The notes below the pieces were generated by a model that saw only the letters and a program-made list of their open reading frames with translations, did not search any database and was not told the DNA's origin. The position numbers were made by a program, and so were the translations under genes. From an uncultured Caryophanales bacterium (GTDB lineage Bacteria > Bacillota_I > Bacilli_A > RF39 > UBA660), in NCBI GenBank assembly GCA_946614095.1, contig CAMOGG010000006.1:1-51720 (forward strand): a stretch of DNA of 51,720 nt. Direction: 5' to 3'. This document shows positions 1 to 32,251 of this stretch, piece after piece. The stretch's first letter is position 1; every line of letters begins with the position of its first letter.

Positions 1-1532
1 TAAATGTTCATTACTTATCCATTCCTCTAACAATAGGAATGATTATGAGAATTCTATTTTTATTAATACTATTTTTAATTGTATTATTTTACTATCATAA
101 GCCAAAAGTAATAATACCATATTTAATAGTCGGGATATTGATGATATTTCATCTATTAGGAAATCAGCTATATAAAACAAATCCATCGAATTGGCAAGAA
201 TTACAAAATATAATGAAAACATTTTATTTTCCTTTGTTATTAGGAACAATTTATACAATAAAAGAAGATATTCAAATTAGTAATTTAACATTATTTACAT
301 CATTATTTTTATATCTAATCTTTATCTTTGTGCCATTATTATTAGGAGTAGGCTATAAAAGTTATAAAATTACAAAAGCTGGGACATTAGGTTTTTATAA
401 TTCGGCAAATGAAATAAGTGGCATTATTTCTATCTTAACTCCTATCATGTTTATTGTATTAAAAGAATCCAAAAAATGGATTCCTAGAATACTTTTAATA
501 ATAATGTATCTAACAGTAATTCTAATGATGGGTACCAAAACACCACTTTTAACTTTATGTTTTATTTCTGGAGCAACTTTAATGTACTTTTGGATTAGAT
601 GGAAAAAGAAAAAAGAAACAAAGAAGATAATTACATCTATTATCTTATTATTATTTAGTATCATAGGACTTAGTATTGTACTTCCTAAAACAAACTTTTA
701 TAAGAATATTGAAACTCATTTAGATTTCTTAGGAGTAGATAGTGTATTGGATGTATTAGAAAGCAAAGAATTAATGGATCATTTTATTTTTAGTCAGAGA
801 TTAACATTCTTACATAAAAAAGCAAGTATCTTTCATTCTGCTAATCTTTATCAAAAACTTTTTGGAATTGGTATCTTTCAAAATGGAGTAGAAACAAAAG
901 CAGTTGAAATGGATTACTTTGATATTTATTATAATTATGGATTGGTTGGATTCTTTATCTTCTTTGGAATTGTATTAACGATTCTTTATCAAATACTAAT
1001 AGAGGAAGAGGAAAAATCATTCAAACGATATATGATAAGAATCAGTCTATTATTAATAATAGTTCTATCTTTATTTACAGGTCATATCCTTGTTGCACCA
1101 TCAGTAAGTCTATTAGTAGTAACTATTATCTTATTATTAAATGATCAAAAGAAAAAGAGATACTTCATTAGTGGAAAAAAATTAGAAGAAAAAGATAACG
1201 ATATAATAGAAAAAATAAAAGGAAAAGATAATCTTCTAACAATCATCCAAGAAAATAAAGTTCCAAGAAATAAAATCTCTTTCTTATTTTTTAAAATTTT
1301 AAATTATCATAATTATGATAGTAGCTTTTATTTTTATAATACAGATGGAATAGGAAAAGACTTAGTAGAAGTAACTTCTAATCAAAGAATAATAGTAGTA
1401 AAGAGAATGAAACAAGAATATGAAGAATATGATTGGATTATTTGTAAAGAAAAAAGAAAAGTTCATTCTAAAAAAATAATTTATTCTGATGATAAGAAAC
1501 TTATGCAAAAAATTGAGTATCATGATAAATAA
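1..1532 (+). CDS. O-antigen ligase/polymerase-like membrane protein (5' partial)
   Basis: Multi-spanning membrane protein that resembles the Wzy/WaaL O-antigen polymerase/ligase family, which joins or ligates lipid-linked glycans outside the membrane. Many hydrophobic helices run through the first ~370 residues, with the loop 'TLGFYNSANEISGI' followed by a helix, as in this family; the last ~120 residues form a charged soluble tail. The frame is open to the first base of the window, and the ATG at 39 has no well-spaced ribosome binding site, so the gene probably begins upstream and 39 is not its true start. It is followed at once by a terminator. Its place next to rhamnose and glycosyltransferase genes fits polysaccharide assembly. 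The family call rests on topology and context; the polymerase versus ligase role cannot be decided. Confidence 0.65.
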   Translation, partial: NVHYLSIPLTIGMIMRILFLLILFLIVLFYYHKPKVIIPYLIVGILMIFHLLGNQLYKTNPSNWQELQNIMKTFYFPLLLGTIYTIKEDIQISNLTLFTSLFLYLIFIFVPLLLGVGYKSYKITKAGTLGFYNSANEISGIISILTPIMFIVLKESKKWIPRILLIIMYLTVILMMGTKTPLLTLCFISGATLMYFWIRWKKKKETKKIITSIILLLFSIIGLSIVLPKTNFYKNIETHLDFLGVDSVLDVLESKELMDHFIFSQRLTFLHKKASIFHSANLYQKLFGIGIFQNGVETKAVEMDYFDIYYNYGLVGFFIFFGIVLTILYQILIEEEEKSFKRYMIRISLLLIIVLSLFTGHILVAPSVSLLVVTIILLLNDQKKKRYFISGKKLEEKDNDIIEKIKGKDNLLTIIQENKVPRNKISFLFFKILNYHNYDSSFYFYNTDGIGKDLVEVTSNQRIIVVKRMKQEYEEYDWIICKEKRKVHSKKIIYSDDKKLMQKIEYHDK

Positions 1533-1542
1533 TAAAACAAAT

Positions 1543-1570
1543 AACCCAGAGAAAATCTGGGTTGTTTCTT
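1543..1570 (+). terminator. Rho-independent terminator
   Basis: Inverted repeat AACCCAGA / TCTGGGTT around a GAAAA loop, followed by a T-rich run. It closes the membrane-protein gene. Its right arm overlaps the -35 box of the next promoter. Confidence 0.85.
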
Positions 1571-1590
1571 TATGAAAAAAGGTTTATAAT
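1562..1590 (+). promoter_or_regulatory. Sigma-A promoter for the glycosyltransferase-rml operon
   Basis: TTGTTT at 1562-1567 and a perfect TATAAT at 1585-1590 with a 17-base spacer, 28 bases before the ATG at 1618. The -35 box lies in the tail of the preceding terminator. Confidence 0.7.
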
Positions 1591-1617
1591 AAAAGAGATG
1601 AAAGCGAGAATGTATAT

Positions 1618-2472
1618 ATGCAAAAGAAACTAGGAATGGTAATTGTAAACTATAACGATTTTAATATGACAAGTCGCTTACTAAAAAACGTAAGAAACTA
1701 TAAATGTTTAGATTTAATTGTTGTAGTAGATAACAATTCGCCAGATGATTCTTTTGAAAAGTTGAAAGAGTTTGAAAGTAACCGAATCACTATAATTAAA
1801 AATAAGTTTAGACAATACTCTTCGGGGTTAAATGTCGGTGCTAAATGCTTAATTAAAAAAGTAGGAGATTGTAATATTATATTTTCCAACTCAGATATCA
1901 TCATTAAAGGTGAGGAAGACTTAAAAAAACTTTCATCAAATATAAACTCGGATGTTGTAGTAGTAGGACCAACAGTAGATGAGCATGGTACATTAAATAG
2001 GGGATGGCACTTACCTAGTACCAATCAAGAAATACTATTCAATATCCCGCTTTTAAGCCGGTATTTTAAACAAAAATATCTACCATATAAAGAAGAAGAT
2101 TATAATAAGGATACTACCTATGTAGACGTTGTATCTGGCTGCTTCTTTATCGTAGATAGTAAATTTCTCATGGATAATGATTATTTTGACGAAACAACAT
2201 TTTTATATTATGAAGAACAAATTTTTGCAATGAAAGTAAAAGAAAAAAACAAAAAAGAATTAGTGGATAATACAGTAACCATTATTCATGATCATTCTGT
2301 ATCGATTGACAAAAGTATTAAAAGAGTAAAAAAACAAAAAATATTAAAGACGAGTCAAAGATACTTTGCAAAAAAATATCTAAAAGCGAATAAATTACAA
2401 ATGGCACTATTATACATAACAGATTATTTTTATCGAGGATTATTGTATCTAAGGTGTCTAATAGGGAGGTAA
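1618..2472 (+). CDS. GT2-family glycosyltransferase (rhamnosyltransferase-like)
   Basis: Family 2 glycosyltransferase, 284 residues, cytoplasmic face of the membrane. The N-terminus '[11 protein letters not shown]' followed by '[10 protein letters not shown]' is the nucleotide-binding start of the GT-A fold, and '[10 protein letters not shown]' sits where the metal-binding DxD region is expected. '[11 protein letters not shown]' resembles the ExD/E acceptor segment of rhamnosyltransferase-type GT2 enzymes. The gene ends one base before rmlA, so the two are co-transcribed and probably translationally linked. Use of dTDP-rhamnose is inferred from this linkage and not shown by the sequence. Confidence 0.82.
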
Positions 2473-2473
2473 C

Positions 2474-3349
2474 ATGAAAGGAATTATTTTAGCTGGAGGG
2501 TCTGGAACAAGACTTTATCCAATTACAGAAGGGATTAGTAAACAACTAATGCCAATTTATGATAAACCAATGATTTATTATCCATTATCAACACTTATGT
2601 TAGCAGGAATTAAAGATATCTTGGTTATCACAACTCCAGAAGATCAAGCATCTTTTCAAAAATTATTAAAAGATGGAACAACATTTGGTATCAATATTTC
2701 ATATGTTGTACAGCCATCACCAGATGGACTAGCTCAAGCATTTATTCTAGGAGAAGAATTCATACAAGATGACGAATGTGCAATGATACTAGGAGACAAT
2801 ATCTTCTATGGAAATGGCTTTAATGAAGCACTTCAGCGAGCAAAACAAAATGCAGAAGAAGGATATGCAACGATTTTTGGAAATCAAGTAAAAGACCCAG
2901 AACGATTTGGAATTATGGAATTAGATGGTGATAAGGTAATTAGTGTAGAAGAAAAACCTGAACACCCTAAGTCTAATTATGCTATTACTGGATTATATTT
3001 TTATCCAAAAGGAGTATCAGAAAAAGCGAAAGAAATTACTCCATCAGATAGAGGAGAATTAGAAATTACATCTCTTAATGACGTATACTTACAAGATAGA
3101 AAATTAAAAGCAGAAATATTAGGTGATGAATTCACATGGTTTGATACAGGAACATTTGATAGTGAATTAGATGCTGCTAATATGATTAGAACAATTGAAA
3201 ATAATAAGGATAAAGTCATTTGCTGTCCAGAACAAATTGCTTATTATAAGAATTGGATTAGTAAAGACAAGTTACAAGAAAGAGCAAAAGTATTAAGTAA
3301 AAATAATTATGGAAAATATCTACAAAAAGTAGTAGATGAAACAAAATAG
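2474..3349 (+). CDS. rmlA: Glucose-1-phosphate thymidylyltransferase RmlA
   Basis: First enzyme of dTDP-L-rhamnose synthesis: glucose-1-phosphate plus dTTP gives dTDP-glucose. The 291-residue length is typical. The signature '[11 protein letters not shown]' (residues 8-18) binds the nucleotide; '[16 protein letters not shown]' and 'ILGDNIFYG' are standard RmlA blocks, and '[20 protein letters not shown]' is the sugar-binding segment. A GGGAGG ribosome binding site overlaps the end of the upstream glycosyltransferase. The next gene's ribosome binding site overlaps this stop codon, so the rml genes form one operon in the order A, CD, B. Confidence 0.97.
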
Positions 3350-3359
3350 GAGGGTATGG

Positions 3360-4874
3360 ATGAATCGATTAGATTTTGAACAAGGTAGAGAAGAAGATAA
3401 ATGCGTAGATTTTAAATCAAATATTATTAAAACAAATTTAGAGGATTGCTATATCATTGAAGAAAATAGATTTGGAGATAGTAGAGGATATTTTACTTCT
3501 GTAACAAGCAAACAATTAGAAGCATTAGACTTTAGAAAATGGAGTCAAAAGAGTGAATCTATGTCTGCCAAAGGAACAATCAGAGGATTACACTTCCAAA
3601 AAGATCCTTATTGCCAAGCAAAAGTAGTAAGTTGTACCAAAGGAGCTGTTTTAGATGTTGTAGTTGATATGAGAAAAGATTCTCCAACTTATGGGAAGTA
3701 TACGGCTATTGAATTAACTCCAGAAAATGGAAGAATGTTATATGTTCCACGTGGATATGCTCATGGATTTTTAGCACTAACGGATGATGCAACTTTTAAC
3801 TATATGGTAGATAATGAATATGCTCCAAGAATGGAAGGAGGAGTTCTTTGGAATGATCCAGCCATCAATATTCCATGGGATGAAATCTTTGAAGAATATG
3901 GAATAGAAGAACCATTATTATCTGATAAAGATAGAGATAGAATCCCTCTATCAGAAAGTGAAGTAAATTTTTTAAGAAGACCAAAAAAGTATCTAGTAAC
4001 AGGAGTAAATGGTCAATTAGGATATGATATTGTAAAGGAACTAAATGAAAGAGGAGAATATGATGTTCTAGCTGTTGATAAAGAGGAAATGGATATTACA
4101 GATAGAGAACAAGTAATGAGAATTGTAAAGGCTTATCAACCAGATGTAATCTTCCATTGTGCTGCATGGACTGCTGTAGATAAAGCAGAAGAATTAAAAG
4201 ATGCTTGTCAAAATGTAAATGTAGAAGGAACAAAAAATCTAGCAGATGCTTCTATCGAAGTAGGTGCCAAAATTGTTTATATGTCAACAGATTATGTCTT
4301 TGATGGAGAAAAAGAAGGATTGTATAATGAAGAAGACACACCAAATCCAAAGAGCGTGTACGGACAAACAAAATTGGATGGTGAAGAAGAAGTTAGAAGA
4401 AATCCAAATCATTTCATTACTCGTATTTCATGGGTATTTGGAGAAAATGGAAACAATTTCATTAAAACTATGCTAAAACTAGCTGACAAATATCCAGAAT
4501 TAACAGTTGTAGATGATCAAATTGGTTCTCCAACATATACGGTAGATCTTGCTAAGCTTCTAGTAGAAATGGCAGAAACAGAAAAATATGGAACTTATCA
4601 TGTGAATAATGAAGGATACTGTTCTTGGGCAGAATTTGCAAGATATATTATGGAAAGTAATGATAAAAATACAGTTATTAAGCCAGTAACGACAGAAGAA
4701 TATTATGATGGAAAAGATACAACATTTATAGCATATAGACCACGTAATTCAAAATTGGATAAAACAAAATTAGAAGAAGAGTTTTATAGACTACCATCAT
4801 GGCAAGATGCTACAGATAGATATTGTAAGCAATTAACCAAATCAAAAAAATGGTGGTTAGAAAACTTAAAATAA
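3360..4874 (+). CDS. rmlCD: Fused RmlC-RmlD: dTDP-4-dehydrorhamnose 3,5-epimerase / reductase
   Basis: Bifunctional protein of 504 residues doing the last two steps of dTDP-L-rhamnose synthesis. Residues ~25-190 are RmlC: 'GTIRGLHFQ' with His78 and 'VPRGYAHGF' belong to the epimerase cupin. Residues ~209-504 are RmlD: Rossmann 'VTGVNGQLG', 'YMSTDYVFDG', and the YxxxK pair Tyr334/Lys338 in 'SVYGQTKLDGE'. The linker is only ~20 residues. The ATG at 3360 is preferred over one at 3336 because an AGGAGGG site at 3348-3354 is correctly spaced for it. No frameshift is visible, so the fusion is real. It lies between rmlA and rmlB with tight spacing. Confidence 0.95.
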   Translation: MNRLDFEQGREEDKCVDFKSNIIKTNLEDCYIIEENRFGDSRGYFTSVTSKQLEALDFRKWSQKSESMSAKGTIRGLHFQKDPYCQAKVVSCTKGAVLDVVVDMRKDSPTYGKYTAIELTPENGRMLYVPRGYAHGFLALTDDATFNYMVDNEYAPRMEGGVLWNDPAINIPWDEIFEEYGIEEPLLSDKDRDRIPLSESEVNFLRRPKKYLVTGVNGQLGYDIVKELNERGEYDVLAVDKEEMDITDREQVMRIVKAYQPDVIFHCAAWTAVDKAEELKDACQNVNVEGTKNLADASIEVGAKIVYMSTDYVFDGEKEGLYNEEDTPNPKSVYGQTKLDGEEEVRRNPNHFITRISWVFGENGNNFIKTMLKLADKYPELTVVDDQIGSPTYTVDLAKLLVEMAETEKYGTYHVNNEGYCSWAEFARYIMESNDKNTVIKPVTTEEYYDGKDTTFIAYRPRNSKLDKTKLEEEFYRLPSWQDATDRYCKQLTKSKKWWLENLK

Positions 4875-4884
4875 AGGAGAAAAT

Positions 4885-5889
4885 ATGAAATTTTTAATAA
4901 CAGGTGGAGCAGGTTTCATTGGAAGTAACTATTGTCACTATGTTGTAGATAAATATCCAGAAGACAAGTTTGTATGTTTAGATGCTCTAACCTATGCAGG
5001 TAATTATAATAATATTAAGTCTCTAGAAAATAAAGAGAATTTTAAATTTGTACATGGAGATATTACAGATAGAGATTTTATAGATAAACTATTTAGAGAA
5101 GAACAATTCGATGTAGTAATTAACTTTGCTGCAGAATCTCATGTAGATAATTCTATTAAAAATCCAGGCATCTTTCTAACAACAAATATCATAGGAACCC
5201 AAGTATTAATGGATGCATCTTTGAAATATAATGTAAAAAGATATCATCAAGTATCAACAGATGAAGTATATGGAGACCTTCCATTAGATAGACCAGACTT
5301 ATTATTTACAGAAGATACACCAATTCATACATCAAGTCCATATTCTTCATCCAAAGCAGGAGCAGATTTACTTGTGGGAGCTTATTATAGAACTTTTGGT
5401 CTTCCAGTAACTATCTCAAGATGTAGTAATAACTACGGACCATATCAATTTCCAGAAAAATTAATTCCAGTAATTTTTTCTAAAGCAATGAAAGATGAGC
5501 ATGTTCCTGTTTATGGAACAGGAGAAAATATAAGAGACTGGATTCATGTCCATGACCATAACGTTGGAGTAGACTTGATTGTTAGAAATGGTAAAGTAGG
5601 AGAAGTGTATAATCTAGGAGGGCACTCTGAAAGAAATAACTTAACTGTTGTAAAAACTATTTTAAAGCAATTAGGGAAAAGTGAAGACTTAATAGAATTT
5701 GTAGAAGATAGAAAAGGACATGACTTAAGATATGCCATTGATTCTACCAAAGCAGAAAAAGAATTGGGATGGAATAGAACTTACAATTTTGAAGATGGTA
5801 TCAAAGAAACAATTGATTGGTATTTAAACAATCAAGATTGGGTAGAAGACATCTTAAATGGTAATTATAAAAATGCTTACAAAGATTAG
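4885..5889 (+). CDS. rmlB: dTDP-glucose 4,6-dehydratase RmlB
   Basis: Converts dTDP-glucose to dTDP-4-keto-6-deoxyglucose, the second step of dTDP-rhamnose synthesis; an NAD-dependent short-chain dehydrogenase-type enzyme. Residues 7-13 hold the Rossmann 'GGAGFIG'; 'QVSTDEVYG' gives the catalytic Thr125/Asp126/Glu127, and Tyr153/Lys157 form the YxxxK pair. 'SRCSNNYGPYQFPEK' and 'GTGENIRDWIHV' are family blocks. The length of 334 residues is usual. It begins 10 bases after rmlCD with an AAGGAGA site and ends inside a strong terminator, so it is the last gene of the operon. Confidence 0.97.
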   Translation: MKFLITGGAGFIGSNYCHYVVDKYPEDKFVCLDALTYAGNYNNIKSLENKENFKFVHGDITDRDFIDKLFREEQFDVVINFAAESHVDNSIKNPGIFLTTNIIGTQVLMDASLKYNVKRYHQVSTDEVYGDLPLDRPDLLFTEDTPIHTSSPYSSSKAGADLLVGAYYRTFGLPVTISRCSNNYGPYQFPEKLIPVIFSKAMKDEHVPVYGTGENIRDWIHVHDHNVGVDLIVRNGKVGEVYNLGGHSERNNLTVVKTILKQLGKSEDLIEFVEDRKGHDLRYAIDSTKAEKELGWNRTYNFEDGIKETIDWYLNNQDWVEDILNGNYKNAYKD

Positions 5890-5905
5890 TAAGCATTTTT
5901 TTATT
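5871..5905. terminator. Terminator between convergent genes
   Basis: AAATGCTTAC at 5871-5880 pairs with GTAAGCATTT at 5889-5898 and is followed by T runs. The stem includes the rmlB stop codon. It ends the rml operon; the complementary strand is less T-rich on its far side, so activity for the convergent acyltransferase gene is uncertain. Confidence 0.85.
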
Positions 5906-6938
5906 TTTTCTTTCCTTCTAATATAGGAAGATAAATAGTAATCCTTTGAATAATAGGAGTATGGATTAAAAACTGAATAAAAGTAACAAGAATAGCATAA
6001 TAAGTAGAAGTCATAATCGGTTTTGATAGATGAAACATCTCAAAAAGAGTAATAGCAAAAACATTATGAGTAATATATTCTAATCCCATATGGGCCATAG
6101 TATGATTCCCAATCTCAGTAAGAATAGAAGAATTTGTCAAAAACGTAGAAAAATAAATCATGGTAATAATATTAATAAGAGATGTAACAATCAAATAATT
6201 CGTCTGGACAAAAGGATGATATTCCAAAATAATAGATAAATTAAAAATTTGTGAAATATTTTTAAAAAACAAAAATACAGATACAAAGAAAGAGAAAGTT
6301 CCAATCAAATGGAATATTTTAATATTCTTTTTGGAATCATTTCGATGTTGAATAAAAGAACAAATAGAAGAGAAGGAAACTGTTCCGAAACAATACCAAA
6401 ATAAATAATTTAGAGTAGACTCAATATAAAGATAATTAAATACGATATTAGAAGGAAAAGTAACTGGGAACAATCCATGTTTTCCAAAACAAACTAATAA
6501 TAAATAGGAGAGGATAAAGATTATTTTATCATTCTGAATATATTTTTTTAAAAGATAATAAGTAATAGAAATCATAAATAATGCGGGAAAAAACCAATAA
6601 TTAGGTTGTATATGTCGAATATCGGATATAGCATAAAAAAAGTCTTGAAGATGAACAGCAGAATCAAAATGATTCCAAATGAAACTAATAATTCCCCATA
6701 AAATCATAGGAATCAGTAATCCCTTTCCTTTTTTTATGAAATATTCTTTAAATGAATTCTTTTTTACACAGTCAATAGCAAAAAAACCAGAAAGAATAAA
6801 AAACAATTTTAAATGAAAAGAATAAGCAAAATCATGTAGATGAGGAGTATCCCAATGACCTAAAAATACAAATATAATTGCTAATGCTCTACAAATATCA
6901 ATCCATTCGATTCTTTCTTTTTTTACTTTTTGCCTCAT
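5901..6938 (-). CDS. Acyltransferase family 3 membrane protein
   Basis: Integral membrane acyltransferase of the OafA/WecH type (acyltransferase-3, ~345 residues), which adds acetyl or other acyl groups to surface sugars. The N-terminus 'RIEWIDICRALAIIFVFLGHW' holds the family's R-x10-H pattern, and 'FHLKLFFILSGFF' is the second conserved block. About ten hydrophobic helices follow. The ATG has a GAGAGAGGG ribosome binding site. It lies alone on the minus strand beside the rhamnose operon, so O-acylation of the wall polysaccharide is a reasonable inference. The substrate is unknown. Confidence 0.85.
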   Translation of the reverse strand: MRQKVKKERIEWIDICRALAIIFVFLGHWDTPHLHDFAYSFHLKLFFILSGFFAIDCVKKNSFKEYFIKKGKGLLIPMILWGIISFIWNHFDSAVHLQDFFYAISDIRHIQPNYWFFPALFMISITYYLLKKYIQNDKIIFILSYLLLVCFGKHGLFPVTFPSNIVFNYLYIESTLNYLFWYCFGTVSFSSICSFIQHRNDSKKNIKIFHLIGTFSFFVSVFLFFKNISQIFNLSIILEYHPFVQTNYLIVTSLINIITMIYFSTFLTNSSILTEIGNHTMAHMGLEYITHNVFAITLFEMFHLSKPIMTSTYYAILVTFIQFLIHTPIIQRITIYLPILEGKKK

Positions 6939-7006
6939 AAAAATCCCTCTCTCTCATTACAATAATTGTTATATATTTAATAAATAAAAAAGTCAAATAT
7001 TTCAGC

Positions 7007-7034: not shown

Positions 7035-7062
7035 GAATGCAAATAAAATAGTGAGGTGCAAT

Positions 7063-7888: not shown

Positions 7889-7911
7889 CTTTATAAAAAA
7901 GTGAAGAATGT

Positions 7912-7939: not shown

Positions 7940-7961
7940 AATAATAGAGGAGAGTCGAAAA

Positions 7962-19474: not shown

Positions 19475-19496
19475 AATAAAAGAATTGAGGTGGAGT

Positions 19497-21858: not shown

Positions 21859-21885
21859 AGAAACTTATCTTGAGTTTCTTTTTTA
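21859..21885 (+). terminator. Rho-independent terminator
   Basis: AGAAACT / AGTTTCT stem followed by a run of T. It overlaps the -35 box of the next promoter. Confidence 0.8.
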
Positions 21886-21898
21886 AATCCTTTATAAT
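21870..21898 (+). promoter_or_regulatory. Sigma-A promoter overlapping a terminator
   Basis: TTGAGT at 21870-21875, a 17-base spacer, and TATAAT at 21893-21898. The -35 box sits in the loop and right arm of the upstream terminator hairpin. Confidence 0.7.
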
Positions 21899-21964
21899 GA
21901 AGATAGGGTGGATGATTGAAAATACTTTAATACAAAATAAAGCACTCTAAGATAAGGAGTTATT

Positions 21965-23250: not shown

Positions 23251-23997
23251 ATGAAAAAAAGAAATGAAACAAATAAAGCAATTGTCGTAAAAGACGTATA
23301 TAAAAGATTTAAACTAGTTTATGATAAACCATTTACTCTAAAAGAAAGATTAATTTTTTGGAAAAATACAAAAGTAGGTTATCATGAAGTATTAAAAGGA
23401 ATTAATTTAACAATAAATAAAGGAGAAACAGTAGCTTTAGTAGGAGTCAATGGTAGTGGAAAGTCTACTTTATTAAAGCTAATGACAAAGATTATTTATC
23501 CTACAACAGGAGAAATTAAGACTTATGGAAAGCTAACTTCTCTTCTAGAATTAGGAGCAGGATTTCATCAAGACTTTACAGGAAGAGAAAACATCTACTT
23601 CAATGCTTCAATCTTTGGACTTACTGCTGCAGAAATTGATAAGAGAGTTCAAGATATTATCGACTTCTCAGAATTAGGAGATTTTATCGAAGCTCCTGTT
23701 AGAACGTACTCATCTGGAATGTATATGAGACTTGCATTTTCTGTTGCAATTAATGTTGACGCTGAAATTCTTCTAATTGATGAAATTCTAGCAGTCGGAG
23801 ATAAACATTTCCAAGATAAATGTTATGCCAAGTTAGAAGAACTAAGAAATAGTGGAAAAACAATTGTTATAGTAAGTCATAATACAGGAGCAATAGAAAA
23901 ACTATGTGATCGAGCAATATGGCTATATGATGGTGAAATTAGAGAAGATGGTCCAAGTAAGAAAGTAATCAAAAAATATCTGGAGGTGTGCGGATAG
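23251..23997 (+). CDS. Polysaccharide ABC exporter, ATP-binding subunit (Wzt/TagH/RgpD-like)
   Basis: ATPase of a cell-wall polysaccharide or teichoic-acid exporter, 248 residues. Walker A 'GVNGSGKST', the signature 'YSSGMYMRLAF' and Walker B 'ILLIDEILAVGD' are all present, and 'LGAGFHQDFTGRENIYFN' is typical of the Wzt/TagH branch. It lacks the C-terminal carbohydrate-binding domain of O9a-type Wzt, so export need not depend on a chain-end cap. It is one base from the permease gene and probably starts a long operon that runs through the glycosyltransferases downstream. Confidence 0.93.
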   Translation: MKKRNETNKAIVVKDVYKRFKLVYDKPFTLKERLIFWKNTKVGYHEVLKGINLTINKGETVALVGVNGSGKSTLLKLMTKIIYPTTGEIKTYGKLTSLLELGAGFHQDFTGRENIYFNASIFGLTAAEIDKRVQDIIDFSELGDFIEAPVRTYSSGMYMRLAFSVAINVDAEILLIDEILAVGDKHFQDKCYAKLEELRNSGKTIVIVSHNTGAIEKLCDRAIWLYDGEIREDGPSKKVIKKYLEVCG

Positions 23998-23998
23998 A

Positions 23999-24766
23999 AT
24001 GATAAAAGAGCTTTATCAGTATAGACAATTATTAAAGAGTAACGTCAGAAAAGAAATAAGAGGAAAATATAAAGGCTCATTCTTGGGCGTATTATGGAGT
24101 TTTGTAAATCCATTATTAATGACTTTAGTATATGCCATTGTTTTCCCATTCTTATTAAGAAATAGTCAAGAACATTACACAACCTTCATTATCATAGGAA
24201 TTCTTCCTTGGAACTGGTTTACAACCTCTATCTCTCAGGGGACAAATTCTATTTTAGTAAATGGAGGTATTATTAAAAAGGTGTATTTTCCAAGAGCTAT
24301 CCTACCAATATCCATTATTGTAAGTGGTTTAGTAAACTTCTTAATCTCTTGCTTAATTATTTTTATCTTCTTAATCTGTAGTGGTATTGGATTTAGTTTT
24401 AATATTTTATATTTACCAATTATTATTCTCTTACAATTTATTTTACAATTAGGAATTATTTTAATAACATCAAGTATTGATGTCTATGTAAGAGATGCTG
24501 AGTATATTATTAATTTCTTTATTTCGTTATTGTTTTATGCTACACCAATTCTGTATTCATTAGATATGTTCCCACAGAAATTAAGATTTATATTACAATT
24601 AAATCCAGTAGCATCATTAGTAACAAGTTATAAAAACATTTTATATTACCAAATTGCACCAAACTTTATGCAATTAGGGTATGTCTTAGTATTATCATTA
24701 TTCCTATTATGGATTGGTATGAAAATATTTAATAAATTGGAAAAAGGTTTTGCAGAGGAATTATAA
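23999..24766 (+). CDS. Polysaccharide ABC exporter, permease subunit (Wzm/TagG/RgpC-like)
   Basis: Membrane subunit of the exporter, 255 residues with about six helices. The N-terminus 'LLKSNVRKEIRGKYKGSFLG' followed by 'LWSFVNPLLMTLVYA' is diagnostic of the ABC-2 polysaccharide permease family, and the late 'FYATPILYSLDMFP' block agrees. It pairs with the ATPase immediately upstream and carries lipid-linked glycan across the membrane. Its stop overlaps the next start (TAATGA type), showing tight coupling. Confidence 0.93.
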   Translation: MIKELYQYRQLLKSNVRKEIRGKYKGSFLGVLWSFVNPLLMTLVYAIVFPFLLRNSQEHYTTFIIIGILPWNWFTTSISQGTNSILVNGGIIKKVYFPRAILPISIIVSGLVNFLISCLIIFIFLICSGIGFSFNILYLPIIILLQFILQLGIILITSSIDVYVRDAEYIINFFISLLFYATPILYSLDMFPQKLRFILQLNPVASLVTSYKNILYYQIAPNFMQLGYVLVLSLFLLWIGMKIFNKLEKGFAEEL

Positions 24767-25611
24767 TGAAAGAGCTAAAAGTAGCAGGAGCTGTTGTATT
24801 ATATAATCCAACAGATGAAGATATTTTAAACATTAACTCTTATATTGATGATATTGACTTATTATATGTAATGGATAATTCCAAAGAAAAAAATAACAAT
24901 AGATTACCAAATAATAAAAAAATTAAATATATTTTTAATCATAATAATCTAGGAATAGCAGAGCCATTAAATAAAGCTGCAGAACTAGCAAGAAGTGAAA
25001 AATATCATTGGTTACTAACTATGGATCAAGACACTCATTTTAAGAAAAACGTAGTAAAAACTATAAAAAAAAGGATTTTAGAAAAAGATTGTTCTAAAAT
25101 AGGAATCGTAACTCCTTGGCACAAGACAAAATTAAAAATAGAAAAATCAAAAGATACAATAGACTACCCACTAGATGTAATGACTTCAGGTAATTTTGTA
25201 AACTTAGATATTCATAAAAAAATAGGTGGTTTCCAAAACGATTTGTTTATTGATGGAGTTGACATGGAATATTGTTTAAAACTAGCTAGAAACCATTATC
25301 AGATTATGCGTTTCAATGACTTAGAAATAGACCATAATTTAGGAGATATCTTTTATCGAAAATTTTTATGGAAAGATTTATTAATAACCAATCATTCTGC
25401 TATGAGGCGTTATTATCAATGTAGAAATTATCATTATATCAAAGAAGAATATGGAAAAGAATTTCCAGATTACTGTAATAGATTAGTAAAAATAAAAGCA
25501 ACAGTCTTAGGAATTCTATTATACGAGAATAACAAATTTGAAAAAATAATGGCCTATTATAAAGGATATAAAGATTATAAAAAGGGGAAGAAAGGAAGAA
25601 GTTATGAGTAG
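24766..25611 (+). CDS. GT2-family rhamnosyltransferase-like glycosyltransferase
   Basis: GT-A fold enzyme of 281 residues. 'VAGAVVLYNPT' followed by 'DLLYVMDNS' is the N-terminal pattern of rhamnosyltransferases of the RgpB/WbbL type; 'WLLTMDQDTHF' supplies the metal-binding aspartates, and 'IDGVDMEYCLKLAR' is the acceptor-side block. The gene overlaps both neighbours, so it belongs to the exporter operon. Rhamnose as donor is an inference from family resemblance and the rml genes. Confidence 0.85.
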   Translation: MKELKVAGAVVLYNPTDEDILNINSYIDDIDLLYVMDNSKEKNNNRLPNNKKIKYIFNHNNLGIAEPLNKAAELARSEKYHWLLTMDQDTHFKKNVVKTIKKRILEKDCSKIGIVTPWHKTKLKIEKSKDTIDYPLDVMTSGNFVNLDIHKKIGGFQNDLFIDGVDMEYCLKLARNHYQIMRFNDLEIDHNLGDIFYRKFLWKDLLITNHSAMRRYYQCRNYHYIKEEYGKEFPDYCNRLVKIKATVLGILLYENNKFEKIMAYYKGYKDYKKGKKGRSYE

Positions 25612-27757
25612 ATTAGTAGAAAAATCAATTAATACAATTAAAGAAGAAGGTATCAAATCATTTATTCAAAAAGGAACGAATTATATTAAATTAAGAACTG
25701 TAAAAGAAAAAGATATTTTTGGAGATATATTAATTATCAATGGTTGTACCTTACCACATCCACAAAGATATAGGGTTGATCATCAAGTAGAACAGCTACG
25801 AGCATCAGGTCTATATACGGATAGAATTGATTATGAAGCTTTAACACTAGATAAATTAAAGTATTATCGTGGCTTTATCTTCTTCCGTTGTCCAATTACC
25901 CCAATAGTAGAAGAATTTATCACAACAGCAAAGAAAGAAAACAAAGCAGTATTCTTTGATATAGATGATTTAGTAATTGATAGAAAATATACAGATACCA
26001 TAGAATTTGTAAAAAATATGTCAAAAGAAGACAAAGCAATTTACGATGATGGTGTAGAAAGAATGAATCGAACTCTACAAATGTGTGATTATTTAATTAC
26101 AACAACAGAAGCTTTAGCAAACGAACTAAAACAATATGGTAAAGAAGTCTATATCAATCGTAATGTTGCTAGTGAAAGAATGGTAGAATTATCTCTAAAT
26201 GCCATTAAAAAGAAAGAAGAACATGAAGATATTATCCTAGGATATTTATCAGGTTCTATTACTCATAATCCAGATATGGAAATGATTAAACCAGCTTTAA
26301 TCAAAATGATGAAAAAATACAAAAATGTAAAATTAAAATTAGTAGGAGAAATTGATCTACCAAAAGAATTAGAAGATTTAAAAGAACAAATTATCATAGA
26401 ACCATTTATGGATTGGGAATATCTTCCTAAAACAATTGCTTCTATAGATATCAATCTTGCTCCACTTGAAAAAAGTGTTTTTAATGAAGCTAAATCAGAA
26501 AATAAATGGACAGAAGCATCTTTAGTAAAAACAGTAACGATTGCTAGTGATATAGGTGCGTTTAATCAGATGATACATGATGGTAAAGATGGAGTTTTAT
26601 GTGAAAATAAAGTATCGTCTTGGGAAAAAGCATTGGAAAAACTTATTACAAATCAAGAATATCGTCAAACTTTAGCAGAAAATGCTTATCAAAGAGTAAT
26701 CAAAGAAAATGTTACAGTATATTCTGGTCATGGAATCAGTAAATTTATTAGACAACGTCTAAAGAAAAACATAGCTTTTGTTCTACCAACTACCAATATT
26801 AGTGGTGGAGTAAACGTTGTAATAAGACATATTGCCATGCTAAAAAAAGCAGGCTATGATGTTACTGTGATTAATATGGATAATAATAACGAAGACCTAG
26901 ATAGTAGATGGGGAAAAGTTCGCGTTTTAAAAAAACATAAAACAAAATATATGGGTCATTTTGATACAATGGTAGCTTCTTTATGGGCAACACTAGAATT
27001 TGTAAAGAAATATCCAAATGTAAAGAATAAGTTATATTTGGTTCAAAACTTTGAAACAGATTTTGCAGACTTTGGTAAGTACATGAGAATAGAAGCCAAT
27101 CAAACCTATGAAGATGATACCAATGTCAAGTATTTAACAATTTCAAAATGGTGTGAAAACTGGTTAAGAGATCGTTTTGAAAAAGAATCAAAATATGCTC
27201 CAAATGGTATTGATTTAGAACAATTTTCTTTCAAAAAAAGAGACTTTAAAGGAAAAATAAAAATATTAGTAGAAGGAAATAGTGAAGACTATTATAAAAA
27301 TGTAGATGAAAGCTTTAAAATAGTAGAAAAATTAGATAAAGATAAATATGAAATCCATTTCTTATCCTATCAAGGAGAACCAAAAAAATGGTATTATGTT
27401 GACAAATTTATGCACAAAGTCCCTTATCAAAAAGTAGGAGAAGTATATCAAGATGCAGATATCTTATTAAAATCAAGTATTCTAGAAAGTTTTTCTTATC
27501 CACCACTTGAGATGATGGCAACAGGAGGATTGGTTGTAGTTGCACCAAATGGTGGTAATATTGAATATATTAAAGACAATGAAAATTGCTTATTCTATGA
27601 GCCTGGTAATATTAGCGAAGCAGTAGAAAAAATAGAATTATTATCAAAAGATAAAAAATTAAGAGAAAAATTAATCAAGAAAGGTATAGAAACCGCAAAA
27701 TCAAGAGAGTGGAAAAAAATCGAAAAAGATATTGTAAGTTTATACGAGGAGAAGTAA
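25604..27757 (+). CDS. Two-domain glycosyltransferase, C-terminal half WsaF-like
   Basis: Protein of 717 residues with two GT-B units. Residues ~35-385 are paralogous to the enzyme encoded at 20689: 'VFFDIDDLVIDRKY', 'IILGYLSGSITHNPD', 'SIDINLAPLEKSVF' and 'SENKWTEASLVKT'. Residues ~390-717 open with 'IAFVLPTTNISGGVNVVIRH' and contain 'YLVQNFETDF', 'LTISKWCENWLRDRF' and the donor-site 'LESFSYPPLEMMATGG', which resemble the rhamnosyltransferase WsaF. A bifunctional polymerising enzyme that adds two sugars in turn is plausible. It overlaps the GT2 gene upstream by eight bases. Confidence 0.85.
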   Translation: MSRLVEKSINTIKEEGIKSFIQKGTNYIKLRTVKEKDIFGDILIINGCTLPHPQRYRVDHQVEQLRASGLYTDRIDYEALTLDKLKYYRGFIFFRCPITPIVEEFITTAKKENKAVFFDIDDLVIDRKYTDTIEFVKNMSKEDKAIYDDGVERMNRTLQMCDYLITTTEALANELKQYGKEVYINRNVASERMVELSLNAIKKKEEHEDIILGYLSGSITHNPDMEMIKPALIKMMKKYKNVKLKLVGEIDLPKELEDLKEQIIIEPFMDWEYLPKTIASIDINLAPLEKSVFNEAKSENKWTEASLVKTVTIASDIGAFNQMIHDGKDGVLCENKVSSWEKALEKLITNQEYRQTLAENAYQRVIKENVTVYSGHGISKFIRQRLKKNIAFVLPTTNISGGVNVVIRHIAMLKKAGYDVTVINMDNNNEDLDSRWGKVRVLKKHKTKYMGHFDTMVASLWATLEFVKKYPNVKNKLYLVQNFETDFADFGKYMRIEANQTYEDDTNVKYLTISKWCENWLRDRFEKESKYAPNGIDLEQFSFKKRDFKGKIKILVEGNSEDYYKNVDESFKIVEKLDKDKYEIHFLSYQGEPKKWYYVDKFMHKVPYQKVGEVYQDADILLKSSILESFSYPPLEMMATGGLVVVAPNGGNIEYIKDNENCLFYEPGNISEAVEKIELLSKDKKLREKLIKKGIETAKSREWKKIEKDIVSLYEEK

Positions 27758-27758
27758 A

Positions 27759-29156
27759 ATGGTAAAATTATCAGAACAAAAAATTTATATCTATCTAGCA
27801 ATAATTTTTGGTTTATTATTTGTCTTTATCACTCCACCTTTTCAGTCACCTGATGAAGATAGCCATTTTAAAAAAGCTTATTTAGCTTCGAAAGGAGTAT
27901 TATATCCAACCGTAAAGGATGAAAAATGTGGTAATGACTTACCAATAGATATGATTGATTATATTAAAGAAAAACTACATTATATTGGTGACCGGTACAA
28001 AAAATATCAATATACAGAGTTTGTAACCGATCAATATGGAACAATGAATCACGAAAAAAAAGCATTTAATGTATATTCAACTGCACAAGTTTTATTTGTG
28101 GCATATATTCCTGCTTCTTTAGGAATAATGGCATCTAAGTTCTGTGCAATACTCTTTGGTATGCAAAATGTATCCGTTCCCTATATGCTATATTTTGCAA
28201 GAGTATTTTCTTTAATAGTTTCAATTTTTATTGTCTATCACGCAATCAAAATAACACCAGTACTAAAGAAGACGATGATGGTTGTTGCTTTAATGCCAAT
28301 GAGTCTCTATTTAATGGGAATGGTAACATATGACAGTATCATTATTTCTCTATCATTGCTCGCGGTAGCTTATATATTAAGATTAATTTATGATAAAAAA
28401 ATCAAAGAAGTAAGAAAAAAAGACATATTAATTATCATTGCTTTAGGTTTTATGTTATTTAATTACAAAGTTGTTTATTCAACATTATTTATTTTATTAC
28501 TATTTATACCAAAAGAAAAATTCTCATCAATGAAGAAAAAAATAATAGATTTTATCATCATAGGATGTTCCATTCTACTGCTAACAATTATCTTTAAAAT
28601 ACCAATACTATTACTTCCAAAAGTAGTAGAAGGATCCGAAACCTTAGTAAGTAGTCAATTACATTTTGTATTAAACCACCTGTTTAGATTTATTCATATT
28701 TTATATAGAAATATAGTGGATCAACGAGCCACACAACTAACAGGAATGGTAGGAATGTTTGGTCTAGTAGACACCTTTTTACCATTACCAGTTATTTTCT
28801 TCTATTTAGGGTTACTAATATTTATGGCTCTTACAGAGAATAGTGATGATAAATATAGAATTACCAACTGGATGAAAATTTCGTTATTATTTGCAGTATC
28901 TTTAACAATAATTGGTACTTTTTCTGCAATGTATATTAGTTGGACACCAAAAATCTTTGGTAAAATTGGTACTTATGATTTAACAGGAGTACAAGGAAGA
29001 TATTTTATTCCAATACTATTCCCAACACTATTATTGTTAGCAAATAAAAAAATAAAAGGAAAATACCTTGATATAATAAAAGATAATTATATCATCGGAA
29101 TAATATTTACATTAGTAATATCTGAAATAACAATACTATTGAGATTTTGGATATAG
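27759..29156 (+). CDS. DUF2142 membrane protein, probable GT-C glycosyltransferase
   Basis: Multi-spanning membrane protein of 465 residues, about eleven helices. The first extracytoplasmic loop begins 'ITPPFQSPDEDSHFKKAYLA', the hallmark of DUF2142, where the acidic DED cluster resembles the catalytic loop of GT-C enzymes that use polyprenyl-phosphate sugars. The start lies one base after the preceding stop. Together with the GT2 and DUF2304 genes that follow it makes a unit expected to decorate polysaccharide outside the membrane. The catalytic role is inferred from fold and context. Confidence 0.8.
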   Translation: MVKLSEQKIYIYLAIIFGLLFVFITPPFQSPDEDSHFKKAYLASKGVLYPTVKDEKCGNDLPIDMIDYIKEKLHYIGDRYKKYQYTEFVTDQYGTMNHEKKAFNVYSTAQVLFVAYIPASLGIMASKFCAILFGMQNVSVPYMLYFARVFSLIVSIFIVYHAIKITPVLKKTMMVVALMPMSLYLMGMVTYDSIIISLSLLAVAYILRLIYDKKIKEVRKKDILIIIALGFMLFNYKVVYSTLFILLLFIPKEKFSSMKKKIIDFIIIGCSILLLTIIFKIPILLLPKVVEGSETLVSSQLHFVLNHLFRFIHILYRNIVDQRATQLTGMVGMFGLVDTFLPLPVIFFYLGLLIFMALTENSDDKYRITNWMKISLLFAVSLTIIGTFSAMYISWTPKIFGKIGTYDLTGVQGRYFIPILFPTLLLLANKKIKGKYLDIIKDNYIIGIIFTLVISEITILLRFWI

Positions 29157-29166
29157 GAGGTTCAAA

Positions 29167-29898
29167 ATGGCACAAAAAGTATTATTAATTATCCCCGCAT
29201 ATAATGAAGAGGAAAACATACTGAATACATACAATACAATCAAAAATTACAACAAAAAACAAAAAACAAACTATGATGTAATTGTAATTAATGATGGTTC
29301 AAAAGATAATACCAAGAAAATATTAGAAGATAATGATATTCCTCATATTAATTTACTTCATAATTTAGGAATAGGGGGAGCTGTTCAAACTGGTTATAAG
29401 TATGCATACTATAATAACTACGATATCGCTGTTCAATATGATGGAGACGGACAGCATGATGTAAGATATGTAAAAAATATTATTGAACCAATCATCAAAG
29501 ATAAAGCTGATTTAGTAATCGGATCAAGATTTGTAGAAAACATTGATACATTTAAGTCAACATTTGCAAGAAGAGTAGGTATAAAAATTATCTCTGCTTT
29601 TATGAAATTTTCAACAGGTAAAAAAATATATGACACAACATCTGGATTTAGAGCCTGCTCTAAAGAACTAATTTATGATTTTTCTTTATCATATCCAAGT
29701 GAATATCCAGAACCTATCACAACAGCAGAAATTTTAAAGAAAAAATATAGAGTATGGGAAATACCAGTAGAAATGAACGAAAGAGTAGGAGGAGTTTCTT
29801 CCATCCGTGCTTGGAAAAATATTTATTATATGATAAGTGTTTGTCTAGCACTCCTAGCCATTAAAATAAGGAGGTATAAAAAATGTCACAGAGTTTAA
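29167..29898 (+). CDS. DPM-like GT2 glycosyltransferase (polyprenyl-phosphate sugar synthase)
   Basis: GT2 enzyme of 243 residues. 'LLIIPAYNEEENI' and 'DVIVINDGSKDNT' start the GT-A fold; 'AVQYDGDGQHD' carries the metal-binding aspartates; 'LVIGSRFVE' and 'DTTSGFRACS' are blocks of dolichol-phosphate-mannose-synthase-like enzymes. It lacks the C-terminal membrane helices some relatives have, and the small membrane protein encoded next overlaps it, which suggests a separate membrane partner. It probably charges undecaprenyl phosphate with one sugar for the DUF2142 protein. Confidence 0.88.
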   Translation: MAQKVLLIIPAYNEEENILNTYNTIKNYNKKQKTNYDVIVINDGSKDNTKKILEDNDIPHINLLHNLGIGGAVQTGYKYAYYNNYDIAVQYDGDGQHDVRYVKNIIEPIIKDKADLVIGSRFVENIDTFKSTFARRVGIKIISAFMKFSTGKKIYDTTSGFRACSKELIYDFSLSYPSEYPEPITTAEILKKKYRVWEIPVEMNERVGGVSSIRAWKNIYYMISVCLALLAIKIRRYKKCHRV

Positions 29899-30233
29899 CA
29901 ATTACATTAATCGTATCTTCAATATTTTTAATGTTACTAACAACCTATGTATTAAAAAAAGGACGTATTCCAGAAAAATACTCTCTTTTATGGTATGTTT
30001 TTTCGTTAATCATTTTACTAGTAGGATTATTTCCTGATTTATTTACTTGGCTATCTAATAAATTAGGTTTTGAAGTGATGTCTAATCTAGTAATTGCTAT
30101 TATAATAGGGAGTCTATTACTACTAACAATGGCTTTAACAATAATGATTGCTGGACAAAAGAAAAAAACAACTCTGCTAATTCAGGAACTATCTATGTTA
30201 AAAGAAAAAGTAGAAAGAGAAAGTAGAAAATAA
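29883..30233 (+). CDS. DUF2304 small membrane protein (GacJ-like partner)
   Basis: Membrane protein of 116 residues with three hydrophobic helices and a charged C-terminal helix. 'GRIPEKYSLLWYVFSLIILLVG' is the DUF2304 signature. The start overlaps the GT2 gene by 16 bases and its AAGGAGG site lies inside that gene, so the two are co-translated. In streptococci the small protein GacJ stimulates the polyprenyl-phosphate sugar synthase GacI; the same job is inferred here. Confidence 0.85.
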   Translation: MSQSLTITLIVSSIFLMLLTTYVLKKGRIPEKYSLLWYVFSLIILLVGLFPDLFTWLSNKLGFEVMSNLVIAIIIGSLLLLTMALTIMIAGQKKKTTLLIQELSMLKEKVERESRK

Positions 30234-30234
30234 A

Positions 30235-31467
30235 ATGAAGAATAATCTAAAGAAAAATTTTATTTGGAATATGATAGGTACTACTTTTTCTTCCTTTAAC
30301 TCTTTATTTTTTATGATTATAGTAACTAGAATAAATGGAGTAAATGATGCTGGAATCTTTACCTTTGCTTTTTCTACAGCATGTCTTTTTTATGTCATAG
30401 GAATTTACAGCGGTAGGACATATCAGATAACAGATAATGATAAAAAAGTTACAGATAGTGATTACTTTTATGCTAAATTTCTAACTTGCTTATTGATGTT
30501 GATAGTATCACTTCTATTTTGTATTATCAGAGGATATCAGTTAGAAAAATTTATGATTATTATGGAACTAGTTTTATATAAATTATGTGAGGCATTTAGT
30601 GAAAGTACTTTTGCAATTCTACAGAAAAAAGATGAACTTCATAAAGTAGGAAAATCATTATTCATGAAAGCTATTTGTAGTCTCATATTATTTTGTATAG
30701 TAGATTATTGGACGAGAAATTTAATTTTATCTACTTCAATGATTATTCTATGGAATATCATTTTTATCTTATTCTATGATATAAGAAACTTAAAACAAAT
30801 AAACTTTAAATTAGAAAAAGTAAATCAATTGAAAGCAATAGAATTAGTGAAAAAGGGATTTTTTGCCTTTGGCTTTTCTTTTTTAACACTATATGTAATC
30901 AATGCCCCAAAATATGCAATAGATGTTCTATTGACCAATAAATACCAAACAGTTTTTGGGATAGTCGCAATGCCTGCTACAGTATTGATTTTATTTGGTC
31001 AATATATTATACAGCCATTTTTAATATCATTAAAAGAAAAATTAAATTCGAACATAAAAGATTTTATAAAATTAACACTTCAAATTAGTGGAATCATGTT
31101 TGGAATTGGAATGTTTTGTACTATAATAGCCTATTTTTTAGGAATACCAGTCTTAGAACTATTATATGGAATAGATCTAAGACGATACTTAATTCCATTG
31201 TTATGCATCATTGTTGGGGGAACCTTCTATGCTACTTCCTTTGTATTTTCGACTTCCTTAACGACAATGAGGCATACTATAGATCAGTTTATCATATTTG
31301 TTATATCATCAATCATTGCAACTGTATTATCTTATTTTTTGGTTCGAAATGGAAAAATTATGGGAGCTTGTCTTTCTTATATGATATCCATGTTATGTTT
31401 ACTATTCTTATTAATAATAGAATTTTTTATCAAAGTAAAAAAATATAGAGGTGAGTCTCATGACTAA
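30235..31467 (+). CDS. Wzx-like oligosaccharide flippase
   Basis: Integral membrane protein of 410 residues with about twelve helices, of the polysaccharide transporter (MATE/MOP-type) superfamily. The N-terminus 'KKNFIWNMIGTTFSSFNSLFFMIIVTR' and 'AGIFTFAF' follow the usual Wzx pattern. It would flip lipid-linked repeat units, a route distinct from the ABC exporter 6 kb upstream. It starts one base after the DUF2304 stop and has only a weak ribosome binding site, so it is probably translationally coupled. Substrate unknown. Confidence 0.85.
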   Translation: MKNNLKKNFIWNMIGTTFSSFNSLFFMIIVTRINGVNDAGIFTFAFSTACLFYVIGIYSGRTYQITDNDKKVTDSDYFYAKFLTCLLMLIVSLLFCIIRGYQLEKFMIIMELVLYKLCEAFSESTFAILQKKDELHKVGKSLFMKAICSLILFCIVDYWTRNLILSTSMIILWNIIFILFYDIRNLKQINFKLEKVNQLKAIELVKKGFFAFGFSFLTLYVINAPKYAIDVLLTNKYQTVFGIVAMPATVLILFGQYIIQPFLISLKEKLNSNIKDFIKLTLQISGIMFGIGMFCTIIAYFLGIPVLELLYGIDLRRYLIPLLCIIVGGTFYATSFVFSTSLTTMRHTIDQFIIFVISSIIATVLSYFLVRNGKIMGACLSYMISMLCLLFLLIIEFFIKVKKYRGESHD

Positions 31468-32251
31468 ATTACATACTTTCGTTGTTTTAGCATATAAAGA
31501 ATCAGATAAATTAGAAGAATGTATCAAGTCAGTATTGAATCAAAGTAAAAAAACAAATGTGGTGATTGCAACATCAACACCCAATTCTTATATCAAAAAA
31601 ATGGCAAAAAAGTATCAATTAGAAATGATTGAAAATCCAGAACCAGGAAAAGGAATTGGATATGACTTTGATTTTGCTTCAAACTGTGTAGACTCCAAGT
31701 TAATAACAATAGCGCATCAGGATGATATTTATGACTATGATTATGCTAAAAAAGTAATAGAAATGTATCAAAAATATCCAACTGCAACAATTATTTTTAC
31801 AGACTATTATGAAATTAAAGGAAAACAAAAAGAGTATACAAATACAAATTTAAAGATTAAAAGAATTCTTCTATTTCCATTAAGATGCCATGCTATATCA
31901 CAGCATAAATGGATAAAAAGAAACGCTTTAAGATTTGGTACACCAATTGGTTGTCCAGCTGTAACATTTGTGAAAAAGAATGTTCCAAAAGAAAAATTTC
32001 AATGTGAACTAAAATGTGATGTAGACTGGTATGCATGGGAAAAATTATCAAAAGAAAAAGGCCATTTTATTTACATTAAAGATAAACTAATGGGACACAG
32101 AATATCATTAGAATCTACTACAACAGAGATTATCAATAATGGAATTAGAACAAAAGAAGACCTAATCATGTTTCAAAAATTTTGGCCAAAACCAATTGCA
32201 AAATTAATCAATCATTTTTATATTAAATCAGAAAAAAACAATCATATATAA
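31460..32251 (+). CDS. GT2-family glycosyltransferase
   Basis: Glycosyltransferase of 263 residues. 'TFVVLAYKESDKLEECIKSVLNQS' is a GT2 opening, and 'LITIAHQDDIYDYDYAKK' supplies the donor-binding aspartates. 'IGCPAVTFVKKNVP' and 'CDVDWYAWEKL' are later family-like blocks. The ATG at 31460 is chosen because GAGGTGAG lies just upstream; an in-frame GTG at 31451 is part of that site. It overlaps the flippase stop by eight bases, so it belongs to the same operon. The sugar is unknown. Confidence 0.8.
   Translation: MTKLHTFVVLAYKESDKLEECIKSVLNQSKKTNVVIATSTPNSYIKKMAKKYQLEMIENPEPGKGIGYDFDFASNCVDSKLITIAHQDDIYDYDYAKKVIEMYQKYPTATIIFTDYYEIKGKQKEYTNTNLKIKRILLFPLRCHAISQHKWIKRNALRFGTPIGCPAVTFVKKNVPKEKFQCELKCDVDWYAWEKLSKEKGHFIYIKDKLMGHRISLESTTTEIINNGIRTKEDLIMFQKFWPKPIAKLINHFYIKSEKNNHI

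Follow-up and report, generated by a model that had tools for sequence, protein, structure and literature searches.

SLH and CWB2 domains act in threes near polymer loci and bind the polymer, SLH pairing with secondary cell-wall polymer and CWB2 with PSII of Clostridioides difficile. The ChW repeats (PF07538) of surface proteins in Clostridium acetobutylicum and other Firmicutes resemble them as apparently non-covalent anchors that come in threes, lie near a wall-polymer locus and carry varied cargo. They differ in forming a separate Pfam family and in occurring away from glycan loci too, and while polymer binding is established for SLH and CWB2, ChW is connected with a polymer through its genes. 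Here we describe three ChW genes in a 51,720-nt stretch of DNA from an uncultured Caryophanales bacterium (the window), which is contig C6 of a 1.38-Mb, 76% complete assembly, together with a survey of ChW genes and rhamnose (rml) genes in other genomes. In Pfam scores, triplets and hydrolase or protease cargo the window's proteins are like the ChW surface proteins already known, whereas the coupling of ChW genes to rml and other wall-glycan operons is a feature seen here for which no earlier description was found in the literature searched, subscription papers lying mostly outside it. That ChW enzymes and wall-glycan operons are coupled is well supported and probably a real pattern, and one wider than could be seen by a sequence-only reading that had earlier suggested a matched glycan-and-ligand system in the window.

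The three ChW proteins, a protease and a GH25 lysozyme among them, are confirmed by profile matches, with PF07538 scores of 345, 336 and 469 bits against a Pfam cut-off of 22. Protein A (7962..11183, plus strand) joins a papain-like protease (Peptidase_C1, E 4.4e-10) and two List_Bact repeats to six ChW repeats, or two triplets (PF07538, E 1.4e-105). Protein B (11253..14780, plus strand) has Big_2 repeats and likewise two triplets made of six ChW repeats (E 1.5e-102), and protein C (16730..19474, plus strand) carries 12 ChW repeats in four triplets, counted by Pfam as 10 stretches (E 2e-144), with a GH25 lysozyme (Glyco_hydro_25, E 2.5e-18). The label 'CHAP-like' for the N-terminus of protein B, given by eye, was not upheld by Pfam, which finds no peptidase there at E<=0.1; the pattern seen by eye is NCAGFA / GHSVF / AEANYG. 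As had been stated, none of the three has a C-terminal LPxTG-type signal, and the sole loose regular-expression match, an internal IPVTN in protein B, is not a sorting signal. Such a signal was found in none of the eight ChW proteins of this genome (0/8, one of them truncated on its N-side by a contig end), which has six sortase matches. Also as described before, the ChW genes stand amid rml, glycosyltransferase and ABC-exporter genes: rmlA, a fused rmlC-rmlD, rmlB, glycosyltransferases and O-antigen-ligase-like, TupA-like and Wzt/Wzm genes are all present. Gene C lies 52 bp 3' of the TupA-like gene and 10 bp 5' of the gene that follows, the plus strand being common to the three.

For the survey, up to 20 kb was fetched around RmlC, giving 58 regions with the window (60 RmlC places minus a duplicate, G571, with the same matches as G483, and a stop-codon fragment, G572:C137), several of them truncated by contig ends. 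The control consisted of 58 seeded random windows from 30 long contigs, all carrying RmlC, placed at least 10 kb from it. Named genomes surveyed were the best 80 of 591 coding stretches, glycan-gene profiles were seeded from the window, L088 and L094, and secreted and LPXTG calls were made with crude regular expressions. Loci L096, L105, L112, L116, L121, L123, L130, L131 and L170, taken as short or cut, were left out, as was L098 (= G014). Of the window, which was chosen for this very pattern, the first 13,700 bases are counted, and figures without it are therefore given.

A ChW gene occurs within 10 kb of RmlC in 14/57 regions without the window and in 4/58 random windows (p 0.011, the surveyed genomes being related and ChW genes of one cluster non-independent); with the window included, the count is 15/58 and the p value likewise 0.011. 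This control is conservative, because its four ChW-positive windows have edges 10–41 kb from an RmlC. With the window excluded and secreted genes filtered more strictly, the ratio of ChW to other secreted genes is 20:37 near RmlC and 11:92 in random windows (p 3e-4), and ChW genes make up 7 of the 134 genes flanking rml genes compared with 11 of 999 genes of random windows (p 0.003). All 21 ChW genes share the strand of the nearest rml gene (20/20 without the window), the corresponding figures being 306/417 for other genes and 151/176 for glycan genes. Anchor genes at a polymer locus above chance, as expected of the SLH and CWB2 kind, are thus found for ChW in both position (14/57 vs 4/58) and strand (20/20). 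Each of the 15 ChW-positive regions belongs to a different genome, among them Niallia circulans (L174), Sellimonas (L179), Proteiniclasticum (L185), Jeotgalibaca (L218), Trichococcus (L222), G472, G578 and G181, a member of the window's family. As a positive control, LytR-CpsA-Psr proteins account for 10 of 37 among the other secreted proteins close to RmlC, compared with 3 of 92 in random windows; these proteins couple polymers to peptidoglycan, and part of these rml loci therefore probably serve wall polymers.

The arrangement of individual loci is closer still in several genomes. In G599 (L298) the genes run rmlA-rmlC-rmlB-ChW/GH25-rmlD on a single strand, the inserted gene (L298:6766-8580) being separated from its neighbours by 40 and 16 bp and having a GH25 domain of the kind found in protein C (labels Pfam-tested), whereas the congener G600 (L299) has rmlA-rmlC-rmlB-rmlD without a ChW gene. 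In G472 (L200) the end of a ChW-GH25 gene and rmlD share 4 bp, ChW directly adjoins an rml gene at 9–162 bp in L179, L180, L201, L205, L222 and L226, and in G181 a ChW-GH25 gene adjoins Wzt/Wzm within the rml locus. The family's RmlC loci L046-L062, only 3.0–3.6 kb long, are too short for the occupant of the ChW slot to be seen.

Our preferred reading, to which we give a probability of about 0.45, is that ChW triplets anchor proteins non-covalently to the wall, that their genes have a functional link to wall-glycopolymer operons, most often those supplying dTDP-rhamnose, and that the triplet most likely reads the polymer or a polymer-bearing site. The observations on which it is built are the triplet architecture, the gene content, co-localisation and a common strand with rml, a single case of insertion into an rml operon and a varied cargo on a shared anchor. 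From these we infer attachment of the polymer to the wall, co-transcription of the genes and a role of the polymer as the docking ligand. In the window, the glycan genes would probably make a rhamnose-containing wall polymer exported by the ABC exporter; the ChW enzymes (lysozyme, protease and a third enzyme) would be produced together with it and, once secreted, would dock on the polymer-bearing wall through triplets that most likely recognise the polymer or its site, and ChW proteins encoded elsewhere in the genome would share the same docking sites.

Several observations weigh against this reading, those on phage lysins given further below among them. In the window itself, rmlB and ChW gene A both end at terminator-like hairpins, and an opposite-strand gene separates ChW genes A and B from rml; a promoter scan of the window was uninformative (118 found vs 113 expected). 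Elsewhere, a ChW gene is absent from 43 of the 58 RmlC regions, Coriobacteriia, as classed by the titles of their records, have one in only 1 of 12 regions, and the ChW-positive genome G603, which is on one contig and outside the 58, has no ChW within 10 kb of rml. At the level of whole genomes, RmlC occurs in just one of the three ChW-positive genomes among 98 drawn from the window's family, namely the window's own. In a draw from the class, RmlC is present in 4/6 ChW-positive and 47/241 ChW-negative genomes (p 0.018), but when the window's genome is removed the comparison becomes 3/5 vs 47/241 (p 0.059). In the G120 family, which seems to include Faecalibacillus, RmlC occurs in 14/14 ChW-positive and 19/29 ChW-negative genomes (p 0.018), one of these 19 (G593) having a fragment match only. 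Genus g124 contributes 8 of the 14 ChW-positive genomes there, and without it the figures are 6/6 vs 18/28 (p 0.15). Because it is weaker without the window's genome and without g124, we regard the genome-level co-occurrence of ChW and RmlC as suggestive only. Among the matches listed, at least 8 of the 14 ChW-positive genomes of the G120 family have ChW within 10 kb of RmlC (G120, G472, G597, G599, G604, G605, G607 and G608, five of which belong to one genus). Across the class and a scan of named genomes, RmlC was found for 52 of 60 ChW handles, or 51 of 59 distinct genomes, with completeness mostly not given and with Lachnospiraceae and Coriobacteriia members entering without a baseline. The sequence-only reading had proposed a genomic check of whether ChW proteins and the glycan genes go together; they do in position and strand (14/57 vs 4/58, 20/20), and less so across genomes. 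As a trait of the window's own family ChW was rejected, being present in 3/98 genomes; RmlC was found in 17/98, 16 of them over the cut-off.

The remaining 8 of the 59 distinct ChW genomes, some perhaps because of assembly gaps, are without RmlC (G014, G071, G102, G233, G545, G556, G565 and G566), which again counts against the preferred reading. Three of them (G014, G071 and G545) nevertheless have a ChW gene within a glycan locus. The ChW neighbours are UDP-galactopyranose mutase, a priming sugar transferase and DUF4422 in G071, and a GT2 enzyme in G014 (labels Pfam-tested). Strict rhamnose specificity is therefore unsupported, and ChW is coupled to glycan loci, rml being the most frequent of the markers tested. 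Near the fetched ChW loci of G556, G565 and G566 (L127, L140 and L141) the glycan profiles gave no match, and the contig of G233 is too short for a neighbourhood to be read. The ChW protein of G102 (L092:1415-5089) lies in a stretch that resembles a conjugative element, as judged by eye from translations. Widespread ChW proteins in genomes without such loci had been named beforehand as evidence against a matched system, and they exist in part: 8 of 60 handles lack RmlC, most of the 78 ChW loci have no rml gene nearby, and in the family draw 15 of the 16 genomes with RmlC over the cut-off are without ChW.

These figures would also fit an absence of any direct link, with rml and ChW genes merely sharing variable, often-recombining surface islands and their placement marking where surface genes are tolerated. 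The many ChW loci away from rml, the five further ChW proteins encoded elsewhere in the window's genome and the weakness of genome-level co-occurrence once corrected all point that way. We nonetheless consider it unlikely, since other surface genes do not follow the same distribution: LPXTG-like genes are not enriched near RmlC (4/58 vs 3/58 random windows), nor are crudely called secreted genes (41/58 vs 45/58). Shared islands would also have to accommodate the strand agreement in 21/21 cases, a ChW gene inside an rml operon and the spread of the 15 regions over 15 different genomes.

A stronger challenge to a glycan ligand comes from the cargo and from phage lysins. Of the 21 rml-near ChW proteins, 19 were scanned for cargo, protein A was scanned separately, and the remaining one, truncated where L192 ends, was left out. 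Among the 19, four carry GH73 and two GH25, five have no catalytic match, and single proteins carry NlpC/P60 with PG_binding_1, CHAP, M23, Amidase_3, C39, M4, CAP and transglutaminase domains. The anchor is thus common and the cargo variable, and 10 of the 19 have a peptidoglycan-cutting domain, from six families. Such cargo would be expected if ChW triplets bound peptidoglycan, at the stem peptide or cross-bridge, with the linkage to glycan operons arising because the cargo reshapes the wall at sites of polymer attachment or release. Part of the cargo fits this less well, namely the papain-like, M4 and CAP domains, for which peptidoglycan cleavage is not known. ChW-free hydrolases are likewise inconspicuous near rml (Amidase_3 1/37 and Glucosaminidase 1/37, with 25 of 32 families listed).

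The same explanation draws on Lc-LysBD, the wall-binding domain of L. casei phage lysins and of phage A2. An hhalign comparison of 33 ChW triplets with seven Lc-LysBD sequences gave a probability of 93.1 (E 3.2e-7, 125 columns), which rose to 96.9 (E 1.9e-10, 107 columns) when two faecal-phage relatives were added, while the best of 50 column-shuffled versions of the latter reached 7.2. By these profiles ChW triplets are homologous to Lc-LysBD over three repeats, and the wall-binding domain of the A2 lysin (L288:19810-20262, L291), in which Pfam calls no ChW at E<=1, is indicated to be a divergent ChW triplet. Identity in the hhalign alignments is only 23–25%, which, like the missing Pfam call, weighs against peptidoglycan binding. 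The AM12 and CL1 lysin domains belong to the same family as that of A2 (62.5% and 93.4% identity to it), and both lysins are treated in print as ChW. Lc-LysBD is reported to bind peptidoglycan only with an amidated D-Asp cross-bridge (PMC4033162) and the binding of CL1-CBD to increase after trichloroacetic acid (TCA) extraction of walls (PMC10610939). As the AM12 fusion was absent from the wall fraction, its authors considered the membrane or lipoteichoic acid (PMC6700490). The best-studied ChW relatives are therefore reported to read peptidoglycan, or at least no TCA-extractable polymer. The earlier statement that the ChW ligand is not established accordingly holds as far as the ligand is listed as undetermined in a 2018 review (PMC5817068), and holds less well in view of these homologous Lc-Lys and CL1 domains.

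Cross-bridge genes vary among ChW genomes, however. FemAB is over the cut-off in 8 of 28 ChW genomes tested, which were picked by us, and one Fem-type bridge therefore cannot be the ligand in all of them. The window encodes a FemAB protein of the peptide cross-bridge type downstream of the glycan genes (34680..35906, plus strand; PF02388, E 8.4e-107), a neighbour that bears on this question, and the three FemAB matches of its genome suggest a bridge type other than amidated D-Asp. On balance, peptidoglycan binding is a serious contender to which we would give somewhat short of an even chance. The phage domains differ from ChW triplets not only in their low identity but also in belonging to phage lysins and in their reported ligand, the amidated D-Asp cross-bridge; the likeness lies in the three-repeat domain.

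Repeats in the window's genome are spaced by 9–11 residues within triplets and by 21–31 between groups, and the repeat number is divisible by three in 127 of 133 complete ChW proteins from fetched loci, one protein shared by L093 and L098 entering this count twice. That ChW works in triplets was proposed earlier (Sullivan 2007, as cited in PMC5817068), and what is new here is the count, not the triplet idea. In an alignment of 33 triplets (A1) the third repeat looks by eye unlike the first two. The nearest relative of a triplet lies on another contig of the same genome for 45 of 135 triplets (3.4 expected), a result of paralogy or homogenisation that does not discriminate between the ligand hypotheses. 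Among solved structures no match to a ChW stretch or to Lc-LysBD was found, the one match of the triplet profile (E 0.2) being taken as chance. A phage search with a ChW triplet returned only two records, the unannotated human faecal phage contigs MT837030 and MT838047, whose ChW stretches have 46–60% identity to the window's triplet.

The window's locus had been thought possibly self-contained. This is rejected, because ChW proteins also occur on three further contigs where no glycan genes were recognised. In all, 54 ChW matches are spread over four contigs of the genome. Of the five further proteins, two combine CAP with Big_2 domains, a third has LRR_5, Big_2 and a weakly matching transglutaminase-like domain, a fourth has a C39-like peptidase, and the last is truncated by a contig end. 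Glycan-gene profiles had no match in the stretches fetched around the three other-contig ChW loci, one of which, contig C36, is only 13.8 kb and starts within a ChW gene; the neighbours named by eye are Lon-, LysM- and leuS-like genes. The protein with the C39-like peptidase (L033:8930-10840) has a relative of 58% identity (L089:3160-4788) from a different genus of the family, and neither gene has recognised glycan genes nearby.

The glycan genes of the window begin with an O-antigen-ligase/polymerase-like membrane protein (39..1532, plus strand; PF13425) and a GT2 glycosyltransferase (1618..2472, plus strand; Pfam). They are followed on the same strand by RmlA of the glucose-1-phosphate thymidylyltransferase type (2474..3349; NTP_transferase, E 1.6e-73), the fused RmlC-RmlD (3336..4874; PF00908 at 32-205 and PF04321 at 219-500) and RmlB of the dTDP-glucose 4,6-dehydratase type (4885..5889; Pfam; 85% identity with RmlB of G181). 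In the family draw, RmlC frames of the 16 genomes above the cut-off divide evenly into eight long ones of the size of the fused protein (483–513 aa) and eight short ones (191–207 aa). The opposite-strand gene mentioned above encodes an acyltransferase (5901..6938, minus strand; PF01757). Flanked on both sides by ChW genes lies the TupA-like ATP-grasp gene (14944..16677, plus strand; PF14305, E 3.6e-64), the C-terminal part of whose product has no Pfam assignment. Beyond gene C, and again on the plus strand, come three genes in 19485..23140, the first without assignment (19485-20696), the second GT4-like (20626-21858) and the third resembling TOD1/MUCI70 glycosyltransferases (21965-23140). The Wzt/Wzm-type ABC exporter follows (23251..24766, plus strand; PF00005 and PF01061; 74% and 53% identity with the G181 homologues), and 24766..32251 of the plus strand holds more GT2 and GT4 enzymes and DUF2142, besides a small gene taken by eye for DUF2304 and a membrane protein (30235-31467), which looks flippase-like by eye and has no Pfam match. 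The product of the locus, deduced from the rml genes, would be a rhamnose polysaccharide.

This gene set could in principle serve protein rather than wall, the ChW proteins or their cargo being acceptors or modifiers of the rhamnose glycan in a protein glycosylation system. S-layer-type glycosylation loci do use rml genes and ABC exporters, and the O-antigen-ligase-like gene at 39-1532 would suit such a role. We hold this to be very improbable, given the frequency of LytR-CpsA-Psr wall-polymer ligases near rml and the fact that similarity to the first triplet of protein B is about equal outside and inside the window (57–86% on C36 and C13, 44–80% in the window).

Taken together, the survey narrows the ChW ligand to two testable options, polymer or peptidoglycan, and supplies material for deciding between them, with G599 and G600 as a natural with/without pair and Niallia circulans, Trichococcus, Jeotgalibaca and Sellimonas as named strains having ChW near an rml operon. 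The AM12 domain, already employed for display on Lactococcus, is shown to be a distant ChW triplet. More broadly, and with somewhat less than an even chance, ChW triplets may be a third large class of wall-glycopolymer-reading anchors beside SLH and CWB2, with a polymer that is usually rhamnose-based and built by an operon beside which ChW genes repeatedly settle; cells would swap wall enzymes while keeping one polymer-matched anchor, and phage lysins would have re-tuned the fold to peptidoglycan cross-bridges. An anchor with its matching polymer would also lend itself to surface display in gut bacteria.

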